A stretch of DNA of 56,624 bases. Source: Gemmatimonadota bacterium (lineage in GTDB: Bacteria; Gemmatimonadota; Gemmatimonadetes; Palauibacterales; Palauibacteraceae). The stretch is taken from NCBI GenBank assembly GCA_023554245.1, contig JAMJQL010000003.1, positions 1 to 56,624 of the forward strand. Direction: 5' to 3'. Every line of letters starts with the position of its first letter. The first letter of the stretch is position 1. Below are positions 51,314-54,070 of the stretch, one piece after another. The translations under genes and the position numbers were made by a program. Under the pieces are notes generated by a model. It searched no databases. It was not told the DNA's origin and saw nothing but the letters and a program-made list of their open reading frames with translations.

Positions 51314-52171
51314 ATGCCCACGACGATTCGACTTCAACGCACCGGCCGGAAGGCACAGGCCTCGTTCCGCATCGTCGTCTCCGACTCAGCCGAGTCGCGT
51401 GACGGCCCGGCGATCGAGACGATCGGCACCTACAACCCGCGGACCCGGCCCTCGCTGATCCGGCTCGACGCCGCCGCAGCCCTGAACTGGCTGCACGAAG
51501 GCGCGGCTCCGAGCGACACGGTAGTCTCGATTTTCCGCAAGACAGGTGTCTGGGAGAAGTTCAAGTCCGGAGCCACGGCGGAGTCCCTCGAGGAAACCGT
51601 GATCGAACTCGGTCCGCCGGAGGGACAGCGAAGCACTTCTCGCCGAGCCGAAATCGCTGCCGAGGCGCAGAAGCAAGCCGCCAAGCGCCGCATGGAAGAG
51701 AAGGCCGTGGCCGAGGCGGCCGCTAAGAAGGCCGCCGCCGACGCGGCCGCAGCGAAGAAGGCCGAAGAGGAGGCTGCGAAGGCCGCCGCCGAGGCAGAGG
51801 CCGCCGAAGCAGAGGCCGCGTCCGAGGTCGGGGCGGAGGCTGCTGAAGAAGAGCCGGCAGCGGACGAAGCCGACGAGGCAGCCGTGGAGGCAGAGGCCGA
51901 GGAGACCGTCGACGAAGCCGCAGAGGCGGAAGAAGCAGCCACCGAGGCGGAGAGCGAAGAGCCTGCTGCCGAGGCCGCGCCCGAAGAGGTAGAGGAGCCG
52001 GCGGTGGAAGCCGCCGACGAGCCGGCTGCCGAAGCGGAGGATGAGGCTGCAGAGCCGGCTGCCGAAGCGGAAGCGGCCGAAGAAGAGACGGAAGAGACTG
52101 AAGAGGCCGCCGACGAAGCCACAGAAGAGACCGAGAAGGCCGTCGAAGCGGAAGAGAAGAAGAAGGACTGA
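51314..52171 (+). CDS. rpsP: 30S ribosomal protein S16 with long acidic C-terminal tail
   Basis: Residues 1-86 are a normal S16 (MPTTIRLQRTGRKAQASFRIVV..., IGTYNPRT, GVWEKFKSG), which binds 16S rRNA in the body of the small subunit. After that the reading frame continues for about 199 residues of low-complexity sequence: first Ala/Lys/Glu-rich and probably helical, then almost purely Ala/Glu, ending in a small Lys cluster (EEKKKD). Usual S16 is 80-90 residues. The position between ffh and rimM is canonical. The tail has the same GC bias as its neighbours and no internal stop or obvious start of another gene. Its function is unknown. Confidence 0.95.
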   Translation: MPTTIRLQRTGRKAQASFRIVVSDSAESRDGPAIETIGTYNPRTRPSLIRLDAAAALNWLHEGAAPSDTVVSIFRKTGVWEKFKSGATAESLEETVIELGPPEGQRSTSRRAEIAAEAQKQAAKRRMEEKAVAEAAAKKAAADAAAAKKAEEEAAKAAAEAEAAEAEAASEVGAEAAEEEPAADEADEAAVEAEAEETVDEAAEAEEAATEAESEEPAAEAAPEEVEEPAVEAADEPAAEAEDEAAEPAAEAEAAEEETEETEEAADEATEETEKAVEAEEKKKD

Positions 52172-52210
52172 AGCCGTTCGGGACCTGGCGGCCCGCACGA
52201 GCAACCGCAC

Positions 52211-52729
52211 GTGGACCCGATCGTCGTGGGGCGCCTCCGGAAGGCGCACGGATTGGACGGTGAGATTCTGGTCAGCCCCGAGACGGGCGATCCAGAACTC
52301 GTGTACGTCCCCGGCCGGGTGTTCGGCCTGACCGGATCTGCGCTCCCGGGCGGAAAACGAAGCCTGACGCTGCGGACGGCCCGACCTCACAAGGGCGGCT
52401 ACCTGCTGCGATTCGCTGAGATCGGAGATCGCGAGCGGGCCGAGAGCCTGAAGGGACACGAGATCACGGTCCCGGCGGATACGCTCCGACCCCTGGAGAG
52501 AGGCGAATTCTTTCTCCACGAGCTGGTTGGATTCGAGGTAGTGCAGGACGATGACGAGCGGGTCGGTGAGGTGGTCGAAGTCTACGAGCTCGGCGAACAG
52601 GTGCTTCTCGGAGTCGAAGTGGGCGGGCAGGAGAAACTGCTTCCGCTGAACCGCGAGCTGGTTCGCGTGGTCGACCGGGAAGCGGGACGGATCAGCATCG
52701 ATCCACCTCCCGGCCTGCTCGAGCTGTAA
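52211..52729 (+). CDS. rimM: Ribosome maturation factor RimM
   Basis: RimM helps assemble the 30S head with S19. The 172-residue protein has the N-terminal beta-barrel (VVGRLRKAHGLDGEILV) and the C-terminal PRC-barrel (FFLHELVGFEVVQDD...LLPLNRELVRVVD). GTG start, 39 bases after rpsP, in the usual order before trmD. Confidence 0.96.
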   Translation: MDPIVVGRLRKAHGLDGEILVSPETGDPELVYVPGRVFGLTGSALPGGKRSLTLRTARPHKGGYLLRFAEIGDRERAESLKGHEITVPADTLRPLERGEFFLHELVGFEVVQDDDERVGEVVEVYELGEQVLLGVEVGGQEKLLPLNRELVRVVDREAGRISIDPPPGLLEL

Positions 52730-53554: not shown

Positions 53555-54070
53555 GTGGATCCGAGAATCGCGGAAATCGAGAAGCAGCAGGTTCGTTCCG
53601 ACCTGCCTACCTTCGCGCCGGGCGACACCGTCCGGGTGATGGTCCGGGTCGTGGAGGGACAAAAGGAGCGCATCCAGGCGTTCGAGGGGATCTGCATCGC
53701 CCGCCGTGGCGCCGGCCTCAACGCGACATTCACCGTCCGGAAGATCTCCGGCGGTGTCGGCGTCGAGCGGATCTTTCCCGATCACTCGCCATCGATCGCC
53801 GGCATCGAGGTCATCCGTCGCGGACACGTGCGCCGGGCGAAGCTCTACTACCTGCGGGAGCGTCGCGGCAAGCGCGCGCGGGTGCGGGAGCGTCGCTGGT
53901 GGGAGGGTGGTAACGTCGCGCCCGAGGCTCCGACCGCGGCCGAAGTCGTCGAGGCGGCAGCCGAGATCGCGGAAGAGGAAACCTCCGCGGCTGCCGAGGT
54001 GGAGGAAGTGGCGGTGGAAGCCACCGAGGAAGCGGCCTCTGACGACACGCCGAAGTCCGCCGACGCGTAG
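53555..54070 (+). CDS. rplS: 50S ribosomal protein L19 with acidic C-terminal tail
   Basis: Residues 1 to about 117 are a normal L19 ([47 protein letters not shown]), which sits at the subunit interface. A tail of about 54 residues, rich in Ala and Glu, follows; usual L19 is about 115 residues. The tail resembles the much longer one on S16 in this same operon. GTG start with AAGGAG upstream. Confidence 0.95.

Follow-up and report, generated by a model that had tools for sequence, protein, structure and literature searches.

Ribosomal protein S16 (bS16) is ordinarily tail-less and 82-90 aa long, as in E. coli and Bacillus. In the window, the whole 56,624-nucleotide stretch of contig JAMJQL010000003.1 analyzed here (Gemmatimonadota bacterium, assembly GCA_023554245.1), the rpsP gene encodes a protein with the same core fold and gene setting but of 285 residues. 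This raises the questions of whether the extra sequence is real, how widely it is distributed, and what it may do on or off the ribosome.

The rpsP gene and the anatomy of its product

The open frame of rpsP (Table 1) bore out a first-pass annotation that had counted 199 residues past residue 86 and had described a long, partly helical and mostly Ala/Glu tail; the tail is real and has this character. The core was classed as bS16 by Pfam PF00886 (Ribosomal_S16, residues 9-67, 62.8 bits against a cut-off of 27) and by the TIGR00002 profile (residues 4-80, 87.5 bits against a cut-off of 45.3). A model of the protein compared with a structure library retrieved ribosomal chains at Z 11.8-15.6 among the 50 matches listed, mainly through model residues 2-88. 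The gene lies after ffh and before rimM-trmD-rplS-rnhB; rpsP-rimM-trmD-rplS is a typical gene order, and it is present in the window. A single S16 gene was matched in the assembly (2.93 Mb, 92% complete).

The annotation had also stated that no second start or stop lies within the tail. The tail indeed contains no in-frame stop, but an in-frame ATG is found at residue 126, and a mechanical open reading frame (ORF) of 96 aa begins at position 52041 in another frame; neither points to a second gene. A second gene inside the tail was rejected, since the only candidates were this out-of-frame ORF (52041-52331) and antisense ORFs, which we took as by-products of GC-rich coding DNA. A 377-aa antisense ORF opposite rpsP (51386-52519, minus strand) is most likely such a by-product. 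A frameshift or assembly error, which had been named as an outcome that could overturn the annotation, was ruled out by open tails in relatives with diverged DNA; the same frame is open in a same-genus relative with 33% synonymous differences in the core, which speaks against a frameshift error. The protein is a bona fide bS16, and its C-terminal extension has two stages and occurs across the order.

Table 1. Coordinates of the S16 and L19 features in the window.
Feature	Position	Strand	Description
rpsP frame	51314-52171	+	ATG to TGA, no internal stop, 285 residues
bS16 core, residues 1-80	51314..51553	+	PF00886, TIGR00002; AlphaFold2 pLDDT 90-97 (blocks of ten)
Conserved proximal extension, residues 81-112	51554..51649	+	consensus GPPxGxxxTSxR
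Predicted long helix, residues 110-176, Ala/Lys/Glu-rich	51641..51841	+	pLDDT 86-98 over 111-170
Low-confidence acidic Ala/Glu stretch, residues 177-257	51842..52084	+	pLDDT 37-52 per ten-residue block
C-terminal part ending EEKKKD, residues 258-285	52085..52168	+	predicted helix 258-284, pLDDT 64-84 over 261-285
Acidic Ala/Glu tail of L19, residues 116-171 (56 residues)	53900..54067	+	A+E 55%, net charge -16

The AlphaFold2 model, which was built from 29 sequences and had a pTM of 0.47, predicted a strand at residues 95-99 within the proximal segment and no secondary structure for residues 177-257. Long helices are readily over-predicted in Ala/Glu/Lys-rich sequence. Conservation was examined in an alignment of 29 members of the window's family, three of which were cut in the tail. 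The proximal segment showed no deletion relative to the window in any member and a two-residue insertion in three. GP at residues 100-101 and T(S/T)(Q/R)R at residues 108-111 were present in 29/29 members and G104 in 28/29, and the mean frequency of the top residue was 0.65 over residues 81-96 and 0.75 over residues 97-112, versus 0.78-0.84 in the core. Among the 26 uncut members, the gap fraction was 0 in the core and the proximal segment and rose to 23%, 37% and 53% going along the distal part; with the cut members included, it was 24-55% past residue 112. A search of the PDB with the proximal segment alone yielded no significant match, the single one up to E 10 being at E 3.3. Being conserved, the proximal segment is a more plausible place for a specific contact than the distal part, and that contact would most likely lie within the 30S subunit.

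The first-pass annotation had suggested that the tail might bind a cytoplasmic partner or organize ribosomes. The conserved proximal motif and the helix predicted in the window's S16 would suit a docking platform of this kind, but the distal part is gapped and variable, and the helix region is richer in Pro/Gly in genera g2-g5, with 5-16 such residues in the members shown versus 0-2 in the seven sequences from g1, g6 and g7. Opposite charges at the spacing of helical salt bridges (i to i+3/i+4) were also counted. The count in the window's helix was matched by 52 of 2000 shuffles and the counts in six relatives by 152-1536 of 2000; none of the seven sequences had an excess at the 1% level, and such counts lend no support to a designed helix of the single alpha-helix (SAH) domain type. 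We therefore consider a platform for a specific partner, or an organizer of ribosomes, quite improbable. Because tail length, repeats and sequence shift between related species, binding of a cytoplasmic partner is unsupported for the distal part.

Long S16 tails across the phylum and in solved ribosomes

The survey of S16 lengths that had been proposed as a check on the annotation found long proteins in much of the phylum and throughout the order. S16 was matched in 35 of the 43 genomes of the order, and all 30 complete, unmasked proteins were 151-285 aa long with a net-negative tail (-0.05 to -0.51 charge per residue), so that S16 has two to three times its ordinary length in the window and its relatives; the number of S16 proteins with a stop is 31 if one masked protein is included. 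The wider survey covered 121 complete S16 proteins in eleven families, and 64 of them were at least 126 aa long; the 121 had been fetched and picked by score and family, not randomly, from the 276 S16-bearing genomes among 298. By family, proteins of at least 126 aa made up 26/26 in f1, 4/4 in f2, 0/24 in f3, 3/28 in f4, 6/6 in f5, 16/17 in f6, 4/4 in f7, 0/3 in f8, 1/2 in f9, 1/1 in f10 and 3/6 in f11. The longest unmasked S16 that was read had 316 aa (G051, f5). The phylum thus offers a natural comparison between f3, with S16 of 82-123 aa, and f1 and f5, which reach 285-316 aa. Eight of 129 rows (3 f1, 2 f2, 3 f6) had been dropped as cut by a contig end or N-masked. L005 (f4, cut) and L038 (136 aa) are absent from the survey, and genomes already counted seem to recur as loci L032-L037 and L039, with equal lengths and proteins.

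The first-pass annotation had further proposed that the tail might be trimmed, so that it would be made and then cut off and mature ribosomes would carry a short S16. Nothing direct favors this; part of the tail is of low confidence in the model, like disordered chains, but it would be surprising for long negative tails to be kept throughout the order if they were always discarded, and we regard removal as very improbable.

Tail chemistry varied by family and was acidic in most. The sole f10 genome had a basic tail (+0.15 per residue), one f5 member was at +0.03, and three long f11 tails were near neutral, two of them with Lys/Glu-rich repeats. Since the chemistry differs across the phylum, charge may matter in some lineages only, or nowhere. 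Two f7 tails (L242 = G032, L257 = G223) were rich in Ala, Ser and Val, with AVSSAASAVAGAVSS among their repeats, in contrast to the Glu-rich tails, and one f11 S16 of 292 aa (L243, G009) contained many near-identical EEPKA repeats.

Long S16 tails were known before from Bacteroidota (188-192 aa) and Actinobacteria (147-162 aa); the kind of tail is therefore already known, and its size and acidity are extreme here. The window's S16 missed the cut-off of NF011094/PRK14521, which we take to be the long bS16 of Bacteroidota (108.6 vs 209 bits), and that of NF011093/PRK14520, presumably the long bS16 of Actinobacteria (103.2 vs 165 bits). In a phmmer search of the PDB, the top matches were P. gingivalis S16 (9i5v, 192 aa) and two S16 entries of 188 aa, 9zcd and F. 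johnsoniae 7jil; C. acnes and mycobacterial S16 (147-162 aa) were matched as well. Proteins of the Bacteroidota type, which are among the three best PDB sequence matches, resemble the window's S16 in that a long tail of Ala/Glu/Lys comes after the bS16 core, and their solved chains are much shorter than the protein; they differ in length (188-192 vs 285 aa) and in tails that were near neutral in the three loci read (L041, L087, L089). With chain length taken as the residues with coordinates, the S16 chain held 85 of 188 residues in F. johnsoniae (7jil), 118 (9i5v) or 97 (9i5x) of 192 in P. gingivalis, 113 of 156 in M. smegmatis (5o5j), 128 of 147 in C. acnes (8cwo), and 113 (7msc) or 85 (5v93) in a mycobacterial S16 of 162 aa. 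Long bS16 tails are thus present in several phyla, and structures leave much of them unseen.

According to the structure papers, the bS16 site is the interface of the 16S 5' subdomains, where h15 and h17 lie (PMC5591316), the S16 extension of M. smegmatis reaches uS4 (PMC6133939; PMC5876184), and the 65-aa extension of C. acnes bS16 binds uS4, with its C-terminus lacking density and a shorter h17 discussed alongside (PMC10085706). As described there, the Actinobacteria type (M. smegmatis, M. tuberculosis and C. acnes) is like the window's S16 in its C-terminal extension, which is partly ordered on uS4 and otherwise unseen, but it is only 147-162 aa long, and C. acnes pairs the extension with a short h17, whereas h17 is of full length here. 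The end of the S16 extension lacks coordinates in homologous ribosomes, which makes the earlier proposal of a tail projecting from the body of the 30S subunit plausible. A literature search by title and abstract, in a collection from which subscription journals are mostly absent, found nothing on S16 tails in Gemmatimonadota, and among the literature on long bS16 tails it found no functional test.

Composition and divergence of the distal tail

Residues 113-285 are 72% Ala+Glu with a net charge of -52, and the S16 core is slightly basic (+4); in the neighboring genes and cores compared with the tail, Ala+Glu was 16-19%. The tail as a protein query against its own genome recovered only S16 itself (150 of 420 candidates scored), and a codon pattern was therefore used in its place. 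The 2.93-Mb assembly was scanned for ten consecutive Ala/Asp/Glu codons, with the reversed pattern as the control. The scan gave 12 overlapping matches, corresponding to 8 separate runs, and the control gave 1. The S16 tail held 7 of the 12 matches and 4 of the 8 runs: three matches, in the stretch of residues 177-257, begin at 51911, 52025 and 52058, and the other four (51782-51819) overlap one another within the helix. Two further runs were in frame within other likely genes, where by eye we take one to lie in a MutL-like linker and the other at the C-terminal end of a GPP34-like protein, and the frames of the remaining three matches (two runs) were judged by eye to be non-gene.

We compared substitutions in the tail and in the core. 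A same-genus pair had pS values of 0.33 (core) and 0.72 (distal tail). Over the pairs compared, distal synonymous differences reached up to 0.78 per site with the frame still open. Of nine pairs, eight had a distal pN/pS of 0.21-0.54, and the ratio was undefined for the closest one; core pN/pS was 0-0.19. As a control, codons were shuffled in one partner of each pair, which gave pN/pS of 0.43-0.73; the observed distal value was under the shuffled mean in all six pairs tested, one of them within the spread (0.54 vs 0.59 +- 0.07). Since the control itself reached such values, composition alone yields part of the signal, and because low-complexity alignment also biases pN down, the signal of selection is weak. 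RNA-level constraint on the tail was rejected, given that synonymous divergence in the same-genus pair was higher in the distal tail than in the core. Rfam at the gathering threshold had no match anywhere in the window.

These results bear on the possibility that the distal tail is nearly neutral, with GC-rich repeat DNA in the last part of a highly expressed gene expanding without loss of frame, while selection purges harmful versions only. Such a history would fit the presence in the tail DNA of tandem repeats 9-33 bases long, the variation of length and repeats between related species and of chemistry between families, and the absence of S16 of at least 126 aa from f3 and f8. It fits less well with long negative tails in 30/30 complete order members read, with half of the separate Ala/Asp/Glu runs of the genome sitting in rpsP, and with pN/pS under the codon-shuffle mean in 6/6 pairs. 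We hold it to be a real but minor possibility.

As an interpretation of the observed length, order-wide presence, conservation pattern and charge, we favor, with a probability of roughly 55%, a proximal part docked on the 30S subunit and a distal part exposed to solvent as an acidic bristle, which would be retained for its bulk charge or length and have no specific partner. Residues 81-112 would pack against the core of S16 and the surface of the 30S body; we infer this docking from their conservation, the predicted strand and a comparison with the S16 of mycobacteria and C. acnes, whose extension touches uS4. Beyond residue 112, a helix would extend into solvent, followed by a disordered, strongly acidic chain, both off the negative rRNA surface. 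The distal part would turn over through in-frame gain and loss of repeats and would be held in the order only to its bulk features (long, acidic and Ala-rich), and its most likely role would be that of a generic charged bristle, acting in solubility, spacing or crowding of the ribosome.

16S rRNA helices and the acidic tail of L19

The C. acnes structure paper interprets its bS16 extension as standing in for a shortened 16S h17 (PMC10085706), and the extension present in the window's S16 could be read in the same way. Helix lengths in the 16S 5' domain were obtained for 39 genomes by alignment to E. coli rrsH (154 searched, 40 matched, and the weak match G165 excluded). We found that h17 was 68 bases long in all 15 genomes with S16 of at least 147 aa (67 in E. 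coli), and likewise in the nine family members with readable 16S, the window's genome among them. In the 24 genomes with S16 of at most 132 aa, h17 was 44-59 bases in 17 and 68 in 7. A short h17 was therefore found only with S16 of at most 132 aa, a pattern that runs opposite to the C. acnes idea, although it comprises only 1-2 independent changes and 16S contigs in draft genomes could be misplaced. Replacement of h17 is contradicted here and is hardly credible as an explanation of this tail, and the idea from C. acnes is not extendable to all long S16 proteins. An h17 of 44-46 bases together with S16 of 84-87 aa was seen in f3 species (L205, L215 and L222; G107, G088 and G148).

S16 length was correlated with the length of h17 (Spearman +0.69) and of h10 (+0.68), and none of the within-family h17 or h10 correlations that could be computed was significant. 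h10 was 49-55 bases in 15/15 long-S16 genomes and in two f11 genomes with S16 of 110-115 aa, and at most 46 in the other 22. On the 16S tree, the S16 class changes two times and the h10 class once, and a tie between long S16 and enlarged h10, being inseparable from kinship, was rejected. With no significant within-family correlation and only two changes of S16 class, the association proves nothing past the contradiction of h17 replacement. Within f1, h6 length was inverse to S16 length (rho -0.72, p 0.03, nine genomes). The 16S matches in many draft genomes (L199-L210, L217-L222) end at model position 546 or 873; these ends lie near or at contig ends or inside contigs and possibly reflect masking or assembly breaks.

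The window encodes a second ribosomal protein with an acidic tail, L19, in which the Pfam domain ends at residue 113 and the core has a charge of +13. L19 was matched in 36 of the 43 order genomes, and 30 loci were read: 15 were 149-249 aa long with acidic tails, 14 were 113-123 aa, and one listed as 295 aa resulted from a wrong start choice, its end resembling the short ones. The lengths of S16 and L19 were correlated (rho 0.70, p 0.0002, 23 genomes, kinship uncorrected), with rho 0.58 for 24 genomes when G165, whose masked S16 is of uncertain length, was included.

Acidic tails on both proteins could point to a role before assembly, in which the tail would be a built-in chaperone or RNA mimic keeping free S16 soluble. 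The strong negative charge beside the slightly basic S16 core and the tail on the more basic L19 are in keeping with this role, but the S16 core is weakly basic, the tail is missing in some species, and tails are basic or neutral in other families of the phylum, which makes it unlikely. An extension of the favored acidic bristle to both subunits (S16 on the 30S, L19 on the 50S) would give an acidic corona that sets ribosome spacing or interactions in the cell, with the S16 GPPxGxxxTSxR segment anchored near the enlarged h10. This extension is a speculative one to which we give little credence; it would apply to tail-bearing Gemmatimonadota, in which GPPxGxxxTSxR would be a lineage-specific docking segment. 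By group, the L19 loci read that had acidic tails came from genera g1, g2 (2/12 members) and g3-g7 of the family, and family f2 had 0/5.
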